From NCBI GenBank assembly GCA_013288345.1, contig JABDCA010000003.1, forward strand, positions 62,001-126,000: a stretch of DNA of 64,000 bases, given 5' to 3'. The translations under genes and the position numbers were made by a program. The notes under the pieces were generated by a model. It saw nothing but the letters and a program-made list of their open reading frames with translations, was not told the DNA's origin and made no database searches. How positions within the stretch are numbered: the stretch's first letter is position 1; every line of letters starts with the position of its first letter. This DNA is from Bacteroidota bacterium (lineage in GTDB: Bacteria; Bacteroidota; Bacteroidia; JABEUT01). Positions 7,683 to 61,633 of this stretch are shown here, one piece after another.

Positions 7683-9308
7683 ATGAAAAAACAAATTGCA
7701 TTACTACAATGGCTGATAATTGCTATGGGCATAAGTGTGGTGGTAAAGGGCCAGCCGGCATATACCCTTAAGTTAAACTACGATACCCTGAGCGGAAATA
7801 ATGTAAGCGCATTATTTACTCCGGATGGCACATTAAATTTTACACCTGCCGGAAATGATGCATATCGTGTGCCTAAAACAGGTGCAGCATGTTCCATTTT
7901 TTGTGGCTCATTATGGATTGGTGGTATTGATGCTGGTAAGCAACTGCATACCGCCGCCGAAACCTATTACCAAAACGGTACCGATTTTTGGCCCGGGCCT
8001 ATAATGGATAGCCTGAATTATTGTGGTCATCAGGATACTATATGGGACAGAGTGTACAGGGTTGACAGATCGACAATAGATAGTTTTAAGAATGGTTTGT
8101 TTGGCAGCAATATTCCAAGATCGATACTCGGCTGGCCCGGTAGAGGTGATACATCACTTGGTGAAATGCCTCAACTTGCACCTTATGTAGATATTTCTAA
8201 AAGTGGCTTTTATAATCCTGTTAATGGCGATTACCCTTTAATTAGAGGAGATGAAGCCGCCTATATGATTTACACTGATGCACGCATTTCAAAACATACA
8301 GAATCGAGAGGTTTGAAGTTTGGCATTGAGGTGCATTTAATGGCATACCAGTTCAATAGTACAGATGCGGCAGTAAATGAGGCTACCTTTTTGCATTACG
8401 ATATTTATAATCGTTCCCAAAATACCTATGATAGTGTTTATGTTGGCAATTTTATAGATATGGATATTGGTAACGGAGGAGATGATTATGTGGGCTGCGA
8501 TACTGTAAATAACTACTGGTATACATATAACGGTGAAGCTGTTGATGCAGCAAGCTCAACAGGCTACGATTCTCTTCCGCCTGCGCAGGCTTTGTTATAC
8601 CTGTGCGACACCATGAAGCACTTTCAATATTATTACAACAATTTTTCGACGCATGGTAACCCTCTTTACCCGCAGAACTATTATGATTATTTAAAAAGTA
8701 TCTGGCCCGATTCAATACATGCTAAATATTACGATACCACTTCTGTAAATACAAATTTTGCATACTCTGGCAATCCGGTAACAGGGCTAGGCTGGTCAGA
8801 GGTTAGCGCTAAAAAACCAATGGGCGATATGCGTGGCTTAAGCAGCGTTGGGCCATTTACATTTGCACCCGGTGGATGTAAAAGTATTGATGTGGCGCTT
8901 GTGTTTGCTCAGAACATGGTGCCGGGCCCAACGGCTAATTTGCAGAGCGTTGCATTGTTAGCCAACAATATAACCGATGTAAAGAATTTTTACAATACAC
9001 AAACTTATGGCTGCGATTCGGGCTTACTGGCATTAAATGAAATAAAACAAAATGTACCTGCAGTAATTGTTTACCCCAACCCAAGCAGCAACGGTAGATA
9101 TACTGTTGGAATTAAAAATTACGAATTAGGAATTACGAATGTTGAAGTGTATAACATACTTGGCGAGACAGTGCATTCTGAATTGTCTACTATCCATTCT
9201 CAATTGTCAATTGATATTAGTAACGAACCCAACGGGCTTTACTTTTATAGAATAACCGATAAGAACGGAGAACAAGTAAGCAGTGGTAAAATGATAATTC
9301 AGAAATAA
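7683..9308 (+). CDS. Secreted T9SS type A sorting-domain protein
   Basis: Signal peptide; C-term 'VIVYPNPSSNGRYTVGIKNYELGITNVEVYNILGETV...NGLYFYRITDKNGEQVSSGKMIIQK'. Confidence 0.85.
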   Translation: MKKQIALLQWLIIAMGISVVVKGQPAYTLKLNYDTLSGNNVSALFTPDGTLNFTPAGNDAYRVPKTGAACSIFCGSLWIGGIDAGKQLHTAAETYYQNGTDFWPGPIMDSLNYCGHQDTIWDRVYRVDRSTIDSFKNGLFGSNIPRSILGWPGRGDTSLGEMPQLAPYVDISKSGFYNPVNGDYPLIRGDEAAYMIYTDARISKHTESRGLKFGIEVHLMAYQFNSTDAAVNEATFLHYDIYNRSQNTYDSVYVGNFIDMDIGNGGDDYVGCDTVNNYWYTYNGEAVDAASSTGYDSLPPAQALLYLCDTMKHFQYYYNNFSTHGNPLYPQNYYDYLKSIWPDSIHAKYYDTTSVNTNFAYSGNPVTGLGWSEVSAKKPMGDMRGLSSVGPFTFAPGGCKSIDVALVFAQNMVPGPTANLQSVALLANNITDVKNFYNTQTYGCDSGLLALNEIKQNVPAVIVYPNPSSNGRYTVGIKNYELGITNVEVYNILGETVHSELSTIHSQLSIDISNEPNGLYFYRITDKNGEQVSSGKMIIQK

Positions 9309-9472: not shown

Positions 9473-11521
9473 ATGAAAAGAGTACTTCTGTATTTTTTAC
9501 TTTTCACTTTTACCTTTTCGCTTTTCACTGCCACTGCGCAGCAAAAAGTTGCTGATTCATTAAAAGCCCGCCTTGCAACCGATAAGCTCGATACCAACCG
9601 TGTAAACGATTGGGTTGAGTTGGCAGTTTGTTATGCCGATGCCAACAGGCCCGATACGGTTATGAAACTTGCTATGCAGGCGCAGGTACTTGCACAGCAG
9701 ATAGATTATACCAAAGGCCAGATGAAAGCCTATAGCATGATGGGATATATGTACCAGGTGCAGAGCAATTTCGATAAGGCTATTGAGAATTTCGCCAATG
9801 GTTTAAAAGTGGCAGAGCGTGTTAACGACAAAGCATACATAGCCAAGTTCAATGGCAAAATAGGTACTGTTTATTCCGATAAAGGCGATTTTGCCAAAGC
9901 GCTTGAGTATTATTTAGTTGACTTGAAGGCAGTGCAGGATATGGGCAACAAAAAAGCCATTGCCCTTGTTACCGGCGATATTGGCAATGCTTACGAGTTA
10001 CAGGGTGATTATGTAAAAGCGCTCGAATATAATTTTAAGGCCCTGCAAATGGATATTGATAACGGTGACAAGAGCAGCGTATCGGTTGTTAATGGCAATA
10101 TTGGTAATATTTATGTAGATGAGAAGAACTACAAATCGGCGTTGGAGTATTACTTCAAAGCGCTGAAGGTAGATTCGGAGATGAATAACAAAAACAGCAT
10201 TGCAGTAAATATTGGCAACATTGGTAACATATATGGCATATTGGGCGATAATGATAAGTCGCTTGCTTATGCACTTAAGGCCCTTAGTATCGACGAAGAA
10301 ATAAACAACAAAGAGGGTGTTGCTATAAATACAGGCAATATTGGTAATATGTATTCTGCCCGCAAGGAATACGATAAGGCAAAGCCCTATTTATTTAAAG
10401 CATTGGCTGCATATTCCGAACTGGGCAGCAAGCAGGGCATTGCAGCCACAAAGGATAATATAGGTGGTTTGTATTTAGACCAAAAGAACTATGCCGATGC
10501 TGAAAAATACTTTTTACAATCGGTTGCATTGGCCGATAGCCTGAACTACTTACCATGCTCCGAAGAAGATTACCAGGATTTGAGCAAGCTGTATTCGGCC
10601 ACAGGTAAATGGCAACAGGCATACGAGGCATCGGCAAAATACAATGCTATAAAAGATAGTATGTTCAGCCAGGATAAAAGCCAGGAGATAGGCCACCTGG
10701 AAGCCAAGGCAGAGTATGAACAAAAGCTTGCTGTGCAAAAAGCCAACGAGGTAAATGATGCCACAATTGCTGAAGAGCACAGCAAAAAGCAACAGGTAAT
10801 GATGTTGCTTATATCGGCAGTGGCGCTTATTGTGTCGCTCATTGCTATATTGATATTCCGCTCGCTAAAAAATGTGCAGAAAGAAAAACAACTGGCCGAG
10901 CAGCAAAAATCGCTGATGGAGTTAAGGGCATTACGGGCGCAGATGAATCCTCACTTTATTTTTAATGCCATCAGCTCTATTCAGCATTTTACCTTGCAGA
11001 ACAATAGTGAGGATGCACAGAAGTACCTCTCGAAGTTTTCGAAGCTTATACGCGGTGTGTTAGAAAACTCTAAATACGAAAGTATAAAGCTATCGGAGGA
11101 ATTGCAGATGCTGGAGCTATATATAGAATTGGAACAGCTCAGGTTTTCATCGAAATTCAGCTACGAACTGGTGATTGATAAAAATGTAGATGTAAATGGT
11201 GTATCTATTGCTCCCCTTATTATACAACCTTTTGTTGAGAACGCTATATGGCACGGACTAATGCACCTTGAAAATAAAATTGGCAAGCTTACCATTACCA
11301 TTCAAAAGCAAGGTGATAAGTTAAAGTGCATCATCGACGATAACGGCATAGGCCGCAAACGTGCTATGGAAATACGCAATGCCAAAATGCACCGCTCTAT
11401 GGGTTTATCTATTACACAAGAACGTATGCATGCCGGAGATATGACAGTCAATTTTATTGATAAGGAAAATGCAGATGGAACGGCTGCGGGAACGACTGTA
11501 GAAATAACATTAACCAATTGA
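9473..11521 (+). CDS. TPR-containing sensor histidine kinase (LytS/HisKA_7-type)
   Basis: ORF track starts at 9440; MKRVLLYF (9473) starts the signal peptide. TPR array, TM, then 'LRALRAQMNPHFIFNAISSIQHF' and 'IIQPFVENAIWHGL' motifs. Confidence 0.9.
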   Translation: MKRVLLYFLLFTFTFSLFTATAQQKVADSLKARLATDKLDTNRVNDWVELAVCYADANRPDTVMKLAMQAQVLAQQIDYTKGQMKAYSMMGYMYQVQSNFDKAIENFANGLKVAERVNDKAYIAKFNGKIGTVYSDKGDFAKALEYYLVDLKAVQDMGNKKAIALVTGDIGNAYELQGDYVKALEYNFKALQMDIDNGDKSSVSVVNGNIGNIYVDEKNYKSALEYYFKALKVDSEMNNKNSIAVNIGNIGNIYGILGDNDKSLAYALKALSIDEEINNKEGVAINTGNIGNMYSARKEYDKAKPYLFKALAAYSELGSKQGIAATKDNIGGLYLDQKNYADAEKYFLQSVALADSLNYLPCSEEDYQDLSKLYSATGKWQQAYEASAKYNAIKDSMFSQDKSQEIGHLEAKAEYEQKLAVQKANEVNDATIAEEHSKKQQVMMLLISAVALIVSLIAILIFRSLKNVQKEKQLAEQQKSLMELRALRAQMNPHFIFNAISSIQHFTLQNNSEDAQKYLSKFSKLIRGVLENSKYESIKLSEELQMLELYIELEQLRFSSKFSYELVIDKNVDVNGVSIAPLIIQPFVENAIWHGLMHLENKIGKLTITIQKQGDKLKCIIDDNGIGRKRAMEIRNAKMHRSMGLSITQERMHAGDMTVNFIDKENADGTAAGTTVEITLTN

Positions 11522-12627: not shown

Positions 12628-12844
12628 CTAATTTGATAATTTGGTGATTTGAAAATTTGATGATTGAAAACAGGGTGACTCCGTCATTGCGACCGCGTGC
12701 CGCCTTAGCTTTAGAGGTGGAGCAGGAACGAAACAATGAAAAATAAAAGGGTGCATGTAAGTCGTTAGCCTTCAGCTACAAAGGCTAAGCGCTTGCAATT
12801 TTATGTTTTGTGTTGTATATTTGATCTTATAAAATCCACATTGA

Positions 12845-14301
12845 ATGAAAAAAAGATTACTTCTACTTATTACAACAATCTTACTTGGTGCTGAAAGCAA
12901 TGCACAATTAACTGACATTTGGGATAGTGTTGGCAAGGGAGTTAACGGGAATGGTTATTGTGTAAAAGCATTGGCTCTAAATGATACGAATGGAAGTATA
13001 ATTTATGCTGGTGGTTCGTTTTTTACTGCCGGGGGCAAGGTTTCAAATAATATTGCAAAATGGACAGGTAGTGGATGTCAAACCTGTGGTAATAATAACG
13101 GAATATGGTCGCCTATTGCAAAGGGTGTAAATAAAGAAGTTACAGCTTTAACGATGTATAAGCATAAATTGGTTGCCGGAGGAGCATTTGATTCCGCGGG
13201 AGGAATTGGAGCCAATTATATTGCCAGTTATGATACTGTCCATTCATGGGATTCGTTAAGTAGTGGATTAAACGGGCAAGTATATGCGCTTGCTGCATAC
13301 GATAGTGTTTTGTATGTGGGAGGAAGCTTTACTAACGCTGGCGGTAAAACAGTAAATAAAATTGCTGAATGGATTATAAATGGATGGCAGCCTATTGCAG
13401 GGTTCGATAGTGGTACTGTCTATTGCCTTGCTATGTATAAGGATACACTTTATGCCGGTGGTTCCTTTACTTCTTCAGGCGGCAACCCTGTTAATTATAT
13501 TGCCAAGTGGAATGGAGTGGTATGGTTGCCGGTTGGTGGTGGAATGAATAATACAGTTTATACTCTTACTGTTTTTCAAAATTCATTGTATGCAGGCGGG
13601 GCTTTTACAAATGCCGGAGGTGTAAGTGCAAATTATGTGGCACAGTGGGGAGGTAGTAGTTGGTTTTCTTTAGGCTCAGGTACTAATGATACAGTAAGAA
13701 CAATGGTGAATTCGGGATTTACTTATGGAGTTATAGAAAAACAAAATGCCGGAAATTTTGCCCAGACAGCATTAGTAGTTGGAGGCAGTTTTACAATGGC
13801 AGGGATTAAGTCAGCACCATATATTGCACTCTATTTTCCTAATGGCGCTGGCGGTCAGTATAACCCCGGATGGAATACTATTGCAGGGCTTACAAAGCCT
13901 GTATATGCTATAACAAGTAATCAGGCAAATAATTATGTTGGTGGCTTGTTTGATTCTATAACATCAGGTTATTGGACTAATGCAGGGCAGGTAAATTACA
14001 TTGCACAGTTTACATTTATGGTGGGTGGTAGTATTAATGAATTATATAATAATAGCAATGTCAGTGTTTTCCTAATCCTTCGAATGGTTTAATAACCTTT
14101 CAATTGAAAGGTGAACAACTGAAAGCAAATAATGTAGAAGTATATAACATGTTAGGCGAAAAAGTGTATTCTCAATTAGCAATAGATAGTGGGCAATGGA
14201 CAATTGATTTGGGTAACCAACCTGCCGGTATATATCTTTATCGAATTATTGATAGTAAAGGTGCAGCCATTGCAACCGGTAAGCTGACGGTTGAAAAATA
14301 A
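12845..14301 (+). pseudogene. Frameshifted T9SS type A sorting-domain protein with 'YAGGSFTNAGG' repeats (ORFs 12845-14092 + 14104-14301)
   Basis: Frame +1 after the TTTT run at 14067-14070 reads ..VFPNPSNGLITFQLKGEQLKANNVEVYNMLGEKV..., restoring the missing T9SS domain. Confidence 0.85.
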
Positions 14302-15654: not shown

Positions 15655-15714
15655 TTAATTTGAAGATTTGATAATTTAGTGATTTGATAATGGCGAACAA
15701 TAAATTTACCACCA

Positions 15715-17937: not shown

Positions 17938-18611
17938 CTAATTATCTTCTTCCCTGCCACAAAGTCTTTCAGGTAGAAAGGCTCGTAATAGGCAACATCG
18001 CTAAAAGTTTTAGTTGCAAACATTTCTTCAGCCATTTTGCACATATTGAGTGACGAAGCATAAATATCGTCGAGCCAGATCTTGGTGGTATCGCCGGCAA
18101 ATAATTCTTTCATCTTCGGCATGCCATCTCCAAAAAAAGCTATGCTTTTGTATTCTGAAAAAGAAGTTGCATCTAATATCTCAGCATGCACTGGTATAAT
18201 TTCTTTACCTGTATTATCAAATAAGGCAGTGTAGACTTCCAACCTCCGGGCATCAATCATTGGGCAATAGAGTACATCCTCGCGTTTTAGCTTTTGTGCT
18301 GCTCCGTATGCCATGGCTTTTAAAGTGGGTACTGCAATAAGTGGCTTGTTTAATGCGTAGCATAATCCTTTTGCTGTGGCTGTTCCAATGCGCAAGCCTG
18401 TATAAGAACCGGGCCCTGTACCCACAGCAATAGCATCTAATGTTGATAAGGAGACGGAAGCTTTCTCCATTAACTCCTTTATGAAAACAGTAATTTTTTC
18501 GGCGTGTACTTGTCCGTCGTTAGCTTCTTTTGATGCAATAATCACACCATCTTTTGCAAGTGCTACAGAGCAAGCAGAAGTTGCAGTTTCTATATTTAAT
18601 ATTAAGTTCAT
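17934..18611 (-). CDS. tsaB: tRNA threonylcarbamoyladenosine biosynthesis protein TsaB
   Basis: 'LILNIETATSACSVALAKDGVII...AIAVGTGPGSYTGLRIGTATAKGLCYAL'; start moved from 18641 to MNLILNIE because the extra N-term is 9-nt repeat DNA. Confidence 0.9.
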   Translation of the reverse strand: MNLILNIETATSACSVALAKDGVIIASKEANDGQVHAEKITVFIKELMEKASVSLSTLDAIAVGTGPGSYTGLRIGTATAKGLCYALNKPLIAVPTLKAMAYGAAQKLKREDVLYCPMIDARRLEVYTALFDNTGKEIIPVHAEILDATSFSEYKSIAFFGDGMPKMKELFAGDTTKIWLDDIYASSLNMCKMAEEMFATKTFSDVAYYEPFYLKDFVAGKKIIS

Positions 18612-18681
18612 AAAGTTCATCAAGTTTTTAAAGTTCTTCAAGTAAAAAGTCTGTAAAGTTCATAAAGCTATTTGCCTTTAT

Positions 18682-18716
18682 AACTTTTAACTTTTCGCTT
18701 TTAACTTTTCACTTAT
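18682..18716. repeat. 7-nt periodic repeat (AACTTTT AACTTTT CGCTTTT AACTTTT CACTTAT)
   Basis: Five exact 7-nt steps; overlaps the stop codon of the 18713-20080 CDS. Confidence 0.85.
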
Positions 18717-46410: not shown

Positions 46411-46415
46411 CCCCA

Positions 46416-46797
46416 AAGCAGGCCGTTCTATCGTCGCGTCCCGCAGCAGTGCGGGACGGGAAGGAAAGTCCGGACAACATAGAGCAACCCGCCCCCAGAA
46501 TACGAGGGACGCCGGTAGTAAATACCGGTGATGGATAGTGTCGCAGAAAACAAACCGCCTTAGCGTTTACCGCAAAAGGTAAGGGTGAAAACGCGAGGTA
46601 AGAGCTCACGATTTTTGCTGGCAACAGCAAAATTGATAAACCCCGGGTGTTGCAAAGCCAAATATGCCGTGGCTTGAGGGCGGCTCGCCCAACACGGTGG
46701 GTAGGCTGCACGAGCATGGGTAGCAATGCCCTGCCTAGATAAATGATAGGAACTCCCGCAAGGGATGACAGAATCCGGCTTACAGGCCTGCTTTTTT
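46416..46797 (+). ncRNA. rnpB: RNase P RNA component (class A)
   Basis: 'GAGGAAAGTCCGGACA'-like GAAGGAAAGTCCGGACAACATAGAGCA, 'GGGTGAAAACGCGAGGTAAGAGCTCAC', 'GATAGGAACTCCCGCAAGGGATGACAGAATCCGGCTTACAGGCCTGCTT'; 5' AAGCAGGCC pairs with 3' GGCCTGCTT. Confidence 0.96.
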
Positions 46798-46822
46798 ATT
46801 ACCCTTTTTAGTTTAGTGTTTA

Positions 46823-51635: not shown

Positions 51636-51673
51636 GTAAAAAACGAATTTATAATGGTAAAGATAGTAATACT

Positions 51674-51831
51674 TAATTACGAATTAAAAATTACGAATTA
51701 CGAATGCCATACAGCGTGTTTTTTTGATACAGTCTAAGTACAATTTGTTTATTGTTTAGATTCTGTGAGGCCTCTTGGTTTTTTATTGAGAATATTATAA
51801 TTCGTAATTCGTAATTTTTAATTCGTAATTA
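51674..51831. repeat. 32-bp perfect inverted repeat of 7-nt units flanking ~94 bp
   Basis: TAATTACGAATTAAAAATTACGAATTACGAAT (51674-51705) / ATTCGTAATTCGTAATTTTTAATTCGTAATTA (51800-51831). Confidence 0.9.
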
Positions 51832-51868
51832 CTTATTCATGTATATTTACCCCATATAATCTCTCTCC

Positions 51869-57062: not shown

Positions 57063-59675
57063 ATGATCAAAAAATTACATCTTTTTATTGCAATTATTAT
57101 TGCAGGCTCATTAACCGCTCAAACATCAATACCCAATAGTGGTTTTGAAAAATGGAACTATACCAGTTGGTTAGATCCGCAATATTATATCACATCGAAT
57201 GTGAATAATATAACAAAAGGCTTACCGGTAAATGTAACGCAATCGTCCAGCTCGTATCATGCAAAAATTGCCGTACAAATGACAACAGTTGCCACAGGCA
57301 GTGATACATCGGCCGGTTACTTTTTTGATGGCCAGCCTACCAATAGCGGGTTTCAGGGTGGTATTCCGTACAGCCAAAAACCTACAGGCTTGCGGTTTTA
57401 CTATAAATATACCCGCACAGCTACCGACACAGGCGTGGTGCTTTGCATATTTAAATTAGGGGGTACTACCATAGGCGGGAAGGAAATAAAATTAGATACA
57501 GCGAAAAATTATAAGTTGAGCTACACCACATTTAGCTTGCCTATAGCACCCGATAGCATTATGTTTGGCGGCCTTTCATCTATTGGCGCTATTCAAAACA
57601 CCGATAAACAAATACCCGGCAGTACATTAATTATAGATAGTGTTACGTTTACCGGCGTTACCAGTCAACCGGCCATGCTTAACGGCGATTTAGAAAGCTG
57701 GGTAGGTGATACACTAAAAGCGCCGCAGGGCTGGTATATACAAAATAATAGTAGCAGTGTGCTCAGTAACCAAACTACCGATGCCTATACAGGTAACTAT
57801 GCACTTATAATAAGTTCTGTTCTTCAAAATTACCAAGGTGCCGATTCTACCTTTACGGCTGAGGCTACAACAGGTATAGAGTCAAACAACGGCTTGCAGG
57901 GCGGATACCCATTTACACATAAAGTAGATACCATTGAGTTTTATTATAAGTATGCCCCTGCCAACCCTAACGACAGTGCCATTATGCAAGTGGGGCTGAA
58001 AAATAGCGGCGTATTTATTTTGTATCGCGATACTATGTTAGCCGCATCAGCTTCATATAAACGTGTGCGGGTACCCTTCTCATCCAATAGTACTCCCGAT
58101 AGTGTTACGGTAACCTTCAACTCATCAAAAAAATGGAGAACAGGGCCATCCTACACAGGAGCAGTTTTAAAGGTAGATAATGTACGTTTCTTATCACAGG
58201 CAGTACCGCCTGTGGCTGCCTTTACCGGTGGCACCGTGGTATGCGTAGGTTCTACTATTAACTATGCAAGCACATCATTAAACGCACCAAGCACAGTAAG
58301 CTGGACCTTTGGCGGCGGTTCACCGGGCACTTCGGGTTTAGCAAGCCAATCGGTATTGTATTCTGTAGCGGGCCCATATACTACCAAACTGGTAGTAAGC
58401 AACAGTGCAGGCAGCGATAGCATTACAAGTACGGTAACTGTAGTTACAGCGCCTACTATAAAGTTCACAGGTAATACAGCTATATGTTCGGGTACCAATA
58501 CTATTATTACAGCTTCGGGTGGCAATACCTATTTGTGGAGCACCGGTTCTACCAACGATACCATTAATGTATCTCCGGCATCAACCAAAACCTATTCGGT
58601 TACAGCTACTGCCATTGGCGGATGTTCTGCCAGCAATAGCCAGGCGGTAACAGTTACCCAAACACCTCCTGCTCCTTCGGCAGGTAGCAACAGCCCTTTA
58701 TGTAGTGGCACAACACTTAATTTTAATGCTACCGCAGCAAATGCTACTTCTTATACCTGGACAGGGCCTAATGGCTTTAGTTCGGGTTCGCAAAATCCGT
58801 TTATAAGTAGTGCACAGGTTCTGGCTTCGGGTACTTACACTGTTACCGGAACTAATGGAGGTTGCACCGGCCCAATAGCAACAGAATCTGTAACTGTTAA
58901 TCAAACACCTGCTGCACCTTCGGCAGGTAGTAACGGCCCTATTTGCAGTGGTATAACACTTAACCTTAACTCTAACTCGGTGGGTGCTACCGGTTATACC
59001 TGGACAGGCCCTAATGGGTTTAGTTCGGGTTCGCAAAATCCGTTTGTGACAAATGCACAAGTTGTGGCTTCGGGTACTTACTCGGTTACGACATCATCGG
59101 CAGCAGGTTGTACCAGTACTTTAGGAACCGTTGCAGTAATAGTTAATCCAACACCTACTGTGTCTGCATCCTATAATCCCAATAACGATACTATCTGTAA
59201 TGGATCGAATGTAGTTATTACCGCTGCAGGCGGTGGTGCGGGTGCAACGTATACCTGGTCGCCTAATATTGGTTTAAGCGCCACAACAGGTGCAATGGTT
59301 ACTGCCAACCCAACCGGCGACCAAAAATATACAGTGGTTGCTACCACTACACTTAACTGTTCGAATACCTTAGATACTGCAGTGTATGTAAAAACATGCG
59401 TTACGGGTATTGAGTCTTTAAATCAATTGCAACAGGTGGTGGTTTATCCGAACCCAAGCAATGGTGTTTTCACCATTGAAGTGAAAAGTGAAGAGTTTAA
59501 AGTGAAAAATGTAGAGATTTACAATATACTTGGCGAACAGGTTTGTTCACCATTTACAATTCACCACTCACAATTCACCATTGATTTAAGCAGCAGGCCA
59601 GCAGGTATTTATTTTTACACAATTTATAATACAGCAGGCGAAGCCATTGACCGTGGTAAGCTTATCATTAAGTAA
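57063..59675 (+). CDS. Secreted PCMD-like/PKD/Ig-like T9SS type A sorting-domain protein
   Basis: Tandem 'PAAPSAGSNGPICSGITLNLN...YTWTGPNGFSSGSQNPF' Ig-like repeats; C-term 'VVVYPNPSNGVFTIEVKSEEFKVKNVEIYNILGE...AGIYFYTIYNTAGEAIDRGKLIIK'. Confidence 0.88.
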   Translation: MIKKLHLFIAIIIAGSLTAQTSIPNSGFEKWNYTSWLDPQYYITSNVNNITKGLPVNVTQSSSSYHAKIAVQMTTVATGSDTSAGYFFDGQPTNSGFQGGIPYSQKPTGLRFYYKYTRTATDTGVVLCIFKLGGTTIGGKEIKLDTAKNYKLSYTTFSLPIAPDSIMFGGLSSIGAIQNTDKQIPGSTLIIDSVTFTGVTSQPAMLNGDLESWVGDTLKAPQGWYIQNNSSSVLSNQTTDAYTGNYALIISSVLQNYQGADSTFTAEATTGIESNNGLQGGYPFTHKVDTIEFYYKYAPANPNDSAIMQVGLKNSGVFILYRDTMLAASASYKRVRVPFSSNSTPDSVTVTFNSSKKWRTGPSYTGAVLKVDNVRFLSQAVPPVAAFTGGTVVCVGSTINYASTSLNAPSTVSWTFGGGSPGTSGLASQSVLYSVAGPYTTKLVVSNSAGSDSITSTVTVVTAPTIKFTGNTAICSGTNTIITASGGNTYLWSTGSTNDTINVSPASTKTYSVTATAIGGCSASNSQAVTVTQTPPAPSAGSNSPLCSGTTLNFNATAANATSYTWTGPNGFSSGSQNPFISSAQVLASGTYTVTGTNGGCTGPIATESVTVNQTPAAPSAGSNGPICSGITLNLNSNSVGATGYTWTGPNGFSSGSQNPFVTNAQVVASGTYSVTTSSAAGCTSTLGTVAVIVNPTPTVSASYNPNNDTICNGSNVVITAAGGGAGATYTWSPNIGLSATTGAMVTANPTGDQKYTVVATTTLNCSNTLDTAVYVKTCVTGIESLNQLQQVVVYPNPSNGVFTIEVKSEEFKVKNVEIYNILGEQVCSPFTIHHSQFTIDLSSRPAGIYFYTIYNTAGEAIDRGKLIIK

Positions 59676-60193: not shown

Positions 60194-61633
60194 ATGATCA
60201 AAAAAATACTAACCCTTGGTTTAGCAATATTTGCAGGCAGTACTTTATTTGCACAAACCGCAATACCCGGTGGCGATTTTGAAACATGGGATTCTACCTT
60301 TTGGCAGGAACCGGCTTTTTACAGCACATCTAATGGGGGCAATAATTTACCCATTGGCGCTCCGCCAAATGTTGTGCAAGCTGCTGCTTACCATGGTAAG
60401 TACGGTATTCAGTTAACTACCATAAAACAAGGCCCTGATACATCGTTTGCTTATTTTACCAATTCCACCGGTAACCCGGTGCAGGGGCAGGGCGGCATAC
60501 CATATAACCAAAAGGCTACCGGCGTTCGCTTTTATTATAAGTGCAGTACAATTGCAAATAAAGATACAGCAGGAGTAATGTTTGTGTTTAAAAAAGCGGG
60601 TAGTGTAATTGGTGTATACGAGTATAAATTAGTTGGCAATGTATCATCTTATACGCTTTACAGTAAAACATTCAGCCCTGCTTTGTCGGTAGCACCCGAT
60701 TCTGTAATTATTGCAGCCATATCATCTATTGGCGCATTACAAGGCACAAGTTGCTATCCGGGCAATTCGCTTACACTCGATAGTTTAACTTACACCGGCG
60801 TTGCCAGCCAACCTGCTATGCAAAACGGCGATTTTGAAAACTGGATACAGGATTCATTATATAACCCAGCCGGATGGATTGTAATAAGTACAGCTAACCC
60901 GCGTACTACTGATAAGTACACAGGCAAGTATGCTCTTGAGCTCAGATCAGGCGTATCGGTAAATAATGGAGGCCAGGTGCAACCTGGTTATGCCACTACC
61001 GGAAAAGAATTGCGTATAAACAATCACCACGATACCCTTGCAGGTGGTTATCCTTATGCAAAACAAATAGATTCACTTATATTTTATTATAAGTATGCCC
61101 CTGCCGCTCCCGGTGATACGGCAGAAGTAAACTTGCAGTTCAATAAAAATGCTAAAGTTATATATAACACCGGCACATATATTAGTAACCCTGAAGCTAC
61201 ATATACACGCATGTCGGTACCATTTAACGTAGGTTCTGTACCCGATAGCGTTATAATAGGCTTTGAATCATCAAGGCAGGATAATAACGGTAATGTAAAC
61301 GCTGCGTATAACGGAACAGTATTAAAAATAGACAGCCTGCACTTTGCCTCGCAACCTATTACTGTAGGCATTATGCCTATTATAGTTGCCGAGGGTATAA
61401 AGGTTTATCCGAACCCGAGCGACGGAAAATTTTCCGTTGCAATTACGAATTACGAATTAGGAATTACGAATGTGGAGGTATACAATATACTTGGCAAGCA
61501 GGTATGTTCGCAATTTACAATTAACCATTCACCATTTACCATTGATTTAAGTAGTATGCCTGCAGGTGTTTATAGTTTAAAAATAACTACAGGTAAAGGC
61601 GTTCAATACCAGAAGCTTATAAAAGCACAGTGA
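60194..61633 (+). CDS. Secreted T9SS type A sorting-domain protein, paralog of the 57063-59675 N-terminal domain
   Basis: 'AIPGGDFETWDSTFWQEPAFYSTSNGGNN...' similar to 'SIPNSGFEKWNYTSWLDPQYYITSN'; C-term 'IKVYPNPSDGKFSVAITNYELGITNVEVYNILGKQV'. Confidence 0.88.
   Translation: MIKKILTLGLAIFAGSTLFAQTAIPGGDFETWDSTFWQEPAFYSTSNGGNNLPIGAPPNVVQAAAYHGKYGIQLTTIKQGPDTSFAYFTNSTGNPVQGQGGIPYNQKATGVRFYYKCSTIANKDTAGVMFVFKKAGSVIGVYEYKLVGNVSSYTLYSKTFSPALSVAPDSVIIAAISSIGALQGTSCYPGNSLTLDSLTYTGVASQPAMQNGDFENWIQDSLYNPAGWIVISTANPRTTDKYTGKYALELRSGVSVNNGGQVQPGYATTGKELRINNHHDTLAGGYPYAKQIDSLIFYYKYAPAAPGDTAEVNLQFNKNAKVIYNTGTYISNPEATYTRMSVPFNVGSVPDSVIIGFESSRQDNNGNVNAAYNGTVLKIDSLHFASQPITVGIMPIIVAEGIKVYPNPSDGKFSVAITNYELGITNVEVYNILGKQVCSQFTINHSPFTIDLSSMPAGVYSLKITTGKGVQYQKLIKAQ

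Follow-up and report, generated by a model that had tools for sequence, protein, structure and literature searches.

Tandem arrays of seven-nucleotide units, dispersed through the genome of this Bacteroidota bacterium and located mainly between genes, have probably been copied into two permissive loops of the C-terminal sorting domain (CTD) of T9SS cargo proteins, where they have been kept when reading frame and fold survived. A probability of about two in three is given to this reading. The window means here the whole stretch of DNA that was analysed (64,000 nucleotides). It belongs to an assembly of 2.99 Mb, 87% complete, in which 120 CTD matches were found.

Heptamer arrays in the focal gene and in the window

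The gene that led to this work carries one array at each of two sites of its CTD:

57063..59675, + strand: T9SS cargo gene, 870 aa, with PKD and Ig-like domains and the CTD in last position (ORF, Pfam)
59442..59672, + strand: T9SS C-terminal sorting domain of this focal gene (= G000:C3:121442-121669; profile match and model)
59479..59511, + strand: site-1 heptamer array, GTGAAAA class, beta2-beta3 loop, peptide EVKSEEFKVKN
59546..59582, + strand: site-2 heptamer array, TTCACCA class, beta4-beta5 connection, peptide SPFTIHHSQFTI

Residues 794-869 of the protein match PF18962 (Por_Secre_tail; Pfam, E=6.5e-14) with a score of 57.5 bits, to be compared with a curated cut-off of 27. The AlphaFold2 model of the domain has a mean pLDDT of 81, and its best structural matches include the T9SS structures 8glk, 8gl6 and 8gl8 (TM 0.66/0.79 with 8glk_D). 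By this cut-off and by its modelled seven-strand fold, the domain is classified as a T9SS type A CTD, and export of the protein is predicted.

The units are GTGAAAA GTGAAGA GTTTAAA GTGAAAA at site 1 (59481-59508) and TTCACCA TTTACAA TTCACCA CTCACAA TTCACCA TTGATTT at site 2 (59546-59587), all in frame in the ORF 57063-59675. The initial annotation thus correctly recognized 7-nt repeats within CTD coding DNA but called them exact, while the units are degenerate: TRF matches reach 73% at period 7, and 86% at period 21 for site 1 and at period 14 for site 2. It also regarded them as beta-strands. In the model, this description suits the site-2 array, which would encode a strand (52-55), a turn and a second strand (59-62), but not the site-1 array, which spans the end of beta2 and the loop and runs into beta3. 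In a synonymous-codon control of the two focal arrays, p=0.007 was obtained for site 1 and p=0.047 for site 2, so that the focal gene is by itself modest evidence.

Other arrays are found in the window, both in genes and between them:

61441..61471, + strand: site-1 array AATTACGAATTACGAATTAGGAATTACGAAT, CTD of the next gene (60194-61633)
61511..61543, + strand: site-2 array, TTCACCA class, CTD of gene 60194-61633
9110..9140, + strand: site-1 array, AATTACG class, CTD of gene 7683-9308
9172..9213, + strand: site-2 array, ATTGTCA class, CTD of gene 7683-9308
9494..9529, + strand: TTTTCAC array in a TPR-histidine kinase gene (ATG at 9474), encoding the hydrophobic core of its apparent signal peptide
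51675..51705, + strand: intergenic AATTACG array, left arm of an inverted pair
51798..51837, - strand: intergenic AATTACG array, right arm of the same inverted pair
18676..18714, - strand: intergenic array, GTGAAAA/AGTTAAA class, the non-coding copy that had been reported near 18682

Over the whole window, 76 positions have at least 24 matches out of 35 at lag 7, as against none at lags 8 and 13 and nine at lag 9. Repeats of other periods are also present. A period-9 intergenic tandem repeat, AAGTTCATA (18604-18667), adjoins the heptamer array at 18676, and period-8/16 repeats, TAATTTGA, lie directly past two ORF ends (12629-12670 and 15656-15691). A further CTD (14056-14298) is encoded by an 81-aa open frame whose reading frame differs from that of ORF 12845-14092, the end of which it overlaps; a frameshift in the gene or in the assembly may be the cause. 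The window also encodes, at 46415-46798, a bacterial class A RNase P RNA (Rfam RF00010, 261 bits).

Genome-scale counts and the synonymous control

Arrays were surveyed in 1.116 Mb of genome stretches, a sample biased to CTD-bearing regions, which contains 85 lag-7 arrays with a score of at least 12: 54 intergenic, 15 in CTDs and 16 in other ORFs. At the same threshold, the neighbouring lags give 14 (lag 8), three (lag 11) and one (lag 13). Of the 16 arrays in other ORFs, most are terminal in their ORF or belong to short ORFs of doubtful status. Apparent signal-peptide cores, such as 9494-9529, are among the convincing cases. Apparent cores built of heptamers were also seen at C40:7189 and C33:1556. 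Array density per kb is 0.49 in CTDs, 0.010-0.016 in other CDS and 0.27-0.53 in intergenic DNA, the ranges reflecting the ORF cut-off. Arrays are therefore 31-49 fold commoner in CTDs than in other CDS (Fisher p about 1e-15 to 1e-17). They belong to several classes (AATTACG, GTGAAAA/AGTTAAA, TTCACCA/TTCACAA, TGGACAA and others), mainly intergenic in the genome, and their tracts in CTDs measure 23-60 nt.

The periodicity resides in the DNA rather than in the encoded peptides. When all 120 CTDs were recoded with the codon usage of the genome in 300 trials, a mean of 0.65 CTDs (maximum 3) reached a score of 12 or more, versus nine observed. In the same way, the sum of lag-7 scores over the 120 CTDs is 665, versus 524 +/- 15 after recoding, and the excess concerns lags 7 and 14 only. 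The lag-7 signal of CTD coding DNA is thus higher than the encoded peptides with synonymous codons would give. Furthermore, CTD DNA shares 164 11-mers with the intergenic arrays, versus 39 (maximum 64) for recoded CTDs.

These results bear on a selection acting at the peptide level, by which amphipathic heptapeptides would be favoured in the loops and the DNA periodicity would be secondary. Several array peptides do alternate polar and apolar residues, and site 2 is predicted to form a strand-turn-strand. The synonymous control (9 versus 0.65) contradicts it, however, and so do the use of identical rare codons and the occurrence of different peptides at the same site. This explanation is considered very improbable. 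A codon-degenerate pattern for NYEL-x-I-x-N-x-E, searched in 396 genomes, was found at five places, all in this genome; no codon-diverse set of NYEL-type loops was found. In these five genes, the codons over the array are identical (5/5), including the rare ACG (7% of Thr codons), while the chance for a single gene to use them is 3e-4.

Two variable loops and the probable copying of tracts into them

In six species of the genus, 39 CTD arrays with a score of at least 10 were detected, and all are confined to two stretches: 24 precede the VEIYN strand (site 1), and the remaining 15 lie after the LG turn and ahead of the GIY strand (site 2). None of the 39 lies at the N-terminus, in beta3-LG-beta4 (the conserved YNxLGE turn) or in the C-terminal strands. 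In the focal CTD model, the two stretches correspond to the beta2-beta3 and beta4-beta5 connections. The T9SS CTD (PF18962) is a seven-stranded Ig-like sandwich; published mutagenesis shows that L-beta3-beta4 and the C-terminus are essential, strand and loop lengths varying widely elsewhere (PMC11285876, PMC10994853 for the fold and the variable loops; PMC11285876 for the mutagenesis). Where type A CTDs contact the translocon, their surface shows little conservation save for one Lys (PMC10994853).

A net insertion of repeats into the loops was considered and rejected, as loop lengths with and without arrays hardly differ (17.8 versus 16.9 aa at site 1; 23.3 versus 24.4 aa at site 2). This near-constancy indicates that the tract replaces loop sequence, or that any gain is compensated.

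Repeats other than heptamers also reach these loops. The dispersed repeat CTTCGACAAGCTCAGGGTGAC lies at site 2 of C43:11844, its other five sampled copies being intergenic, and a variant of it occurs at C8:43030; CTGAACTTGTTTCAG-type palindromes occupy both CTD sites of one gene of genome G304. The presence of other dispersed repeats in the same two loops favours a permissive landing site over local replication slippage, according to which native codons (CAATTGACAATTGAT for QLTID, equivalent to two 7-nt units) would have been expanded in place under length selection, intergenic arrays being similar because the same slippage acts everywhere. Heptamer slippage has been put forward to account for 7-nt repeats in general (Mrazek et al., according to PMC4679880), and the constant register of site 2, which ends in IDLS, would agree with it. 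Moreover, part of the site-2 signal may be local, given the 7-nt periodicity already present in native CTD codons such as CAATTGACAATTGAT. As a general explanation, slippage is nevertheless rather unlikely, since loop length is not raised and since unrelated genes share 30-nt tracts that are identical down to the order of their unit variants. At L368, L391 and L406 (G304, G298), the same two loops contain the CTGAACTTGTTTCAG palindrome and GC-rich apparent hairpins.

The shared tracts are sharp-edged. One 30-nt tract is identical in four CTDs (150/150 compared bases) between flanking coding DNA that is 54% and 55% identical. A 31-mer including it is also found in another species (G305), at the same position of a CTD whose protein is otherwise without significant similarity to the array-bearing proteins of the present genome. 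Identical 30-mers between diverged flanks, together with the synonymous control and the shared 11-mers, uphold the nucleotide-level origin suggested by the initial annotation.

The full 30-mer, with its tract AATTACG-AATTACG-AATTAGG-AATTACG, was found in CTDs only, in two species, so that CTD-to-CTD copying without an intergenic donor fits as well. The arrays might then have arisen once or a few times in CTDs and spread by gene conversion among these numerous (about 120) paralogues, the intergenic arrays being irrelevant. Such conversion would however be expected to carry along the flanks, which are only 54% identical, and the arrays of both sites belong to several classes that are also present between genes. 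As the sole source of the arrays, it is unlikely.

Arrays are gained, lost and switched from one class to another. Among relatives whose cargo part is 58-65% identical, an AATTACG array occupies site 1 of one gene, where the others have ordinary sequence; for a second gene, one relative lacks the array and another carries a different heptamer class. In five congeneric genomes, arrays of several classes (score at least 10) were detected in 20/85 sampled CTDs, a biased fraction as some of these regions were picked at array hits. None was found in 29 CTDs of other families, nor did samples of 388 and 396 genomes show the AATTACG version in any CTD outside the genus. Since most CTDs carry no array and close orthologues manage without one, the proposal that the repeats were exapted into the secretion signal goes too far. 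Selfish DNA, the alternative origin named in the initial annotation, likewise stays hypothetical.

Between genes, 11 of the 54 arrays are accompanied within 250 nt by an inverted partner, against none in the control. The pair of the window (51665-51850) is near-perfect, with a stem of about 35 bp and a fold z of -9.4, and similar pairs elsewhere in the genome have spacers of about 26-350 nt. These pairs, and the complementary array classes carried by C3:131167 and G300:C37, would be compatible with CTD arrays acting as DNA or RNA hairpins, the complementary classes at the two sites folding together. This function was tested and is unsupported: fold z is only -0.89 for the focal gene, a permutation across eight two-array CTDs gives p=0.28, and a strong inverted partner was found for 0/15 CTD arrays. 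It is scarcely credible.

The preferred reading remains the copying of dispersed arrays into permissive loops. Short tracts of intergenic-type arrays would be copied repeatedly into the beta2-beta3 and beta4-beta5 loops, replacing loop sequence, possibly by short-tract conversion or template switching, with an intergenic array or another CTD as donor. As 7 = 1 mod 3, a pure 7-nt array yields the same cyclic heptapeptide whichever frame is read (NYELRIT for AATTACG), which leaves stop codons and net length as the main limits; usually only one of its strands is free of stops. Selection would eliminate tracts that bring in-frame stops or an unsuitable loop length and spare the essential beta3-beta4 turn, while near-neutral tolerance may explain the hotspot. 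Such an entry into loops would parallel that of Rickettsia palindromic elements (RPEs) into ORFs.

Known repeats and significance of the arrays

The cyanobacterial STRRs are among the closest known parallels to the heptamer arrays. As in STRR/TAACTGA-type repeats, the units are tandem and 7 nt long, the arrays are dispersed and mostly intergenic (54/85), and lag 7 exceeds the neighbouring lags. TAACTGA direct repeats are mostly intergenic and patchy in Cyanobacteria and Bacteroidetes; some lie inside ORFs, in the stop-free orientation, and encode the cyclic heptapeptide LSVISYQ (MacGregor 2015, PMC4679880). However, the units found here are AATTACG, GTGAAAA, TTCACCA, TGGACAA and others, so that these arrays are relatives in kind and not members of the TAACTGA family. 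Furthermore, TAACTGA copies in ORFs are mostly at protein ends, whereas the in-frame arrays seen here are concentrated in two loops inside a single domain family, where they replace sequence rather than extend it.

RPEs are dispersed repeats found in existing Rickettsia ORFs, with the frame intact, in solvent-exposed parts, including those of PheT (PMC3767692). Like them, the heptamer arrays occur both in frame in ORFs and between genes. But RPEs are palindromes of 100-150 bp that insert as whole units in many different genes, while the CTD tracts are heptameric, about 30-45 nt long, without a strong inverted partner and kept to the loops of one domain. The arrays thus work like RPEs, yet are no RPEs. 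No account of heptamer repeats linked to T9SS CTDs, or of repeat-derived CTD loops, was found in the open-access papers searched; what appears to be new is a defined domain hotspot reached independently by several repeat families.

Among the matches listed in GTDB genomes, AATTACG arrays occur in Cyanobacteria, Bacteroidota, Acidobacteria, Chloroflexi, Ignavibacteria and others. Several are in frame within ORFs of other bacteria that family searches assign to UvrC (L106), PheT (L113), SMC (L170), MurD (L219) and an Eco57I-type methylase (L152), the methylase gene containing several arrays. Their in-frame habit is therefore general. By contrast, none of the 155 positions among these listed matches is in a CTD, so that the CTD hotspot was seen only in this genus. 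It is tempting to extend the argument, as a tentative and rather doubtful proposal, to a recurrent DNA-copying process that would write heptamer arrays into genes of several phyla as a frame-independent source of peptides, and that would keep rewriting two T9SS loops here, possibly tuning cargo export. Readability in any frame on a stop-free strand, because 7 = 1 mod 3, may explain the above-expected survival of 7-nt arrays in genes.

It should be kept in mind that repeat-derived peptides can inflate the similarity among unrelated T9SS cargo proteins. With about 200 sampled CTDs from six species, roughly 15% of them with a detectable array, and with array-free orthologues for comparison, the genus offers a replicated natural experiment, and the two CTD loops constitute a natural record of non-coding repeats becoming protein sequence.
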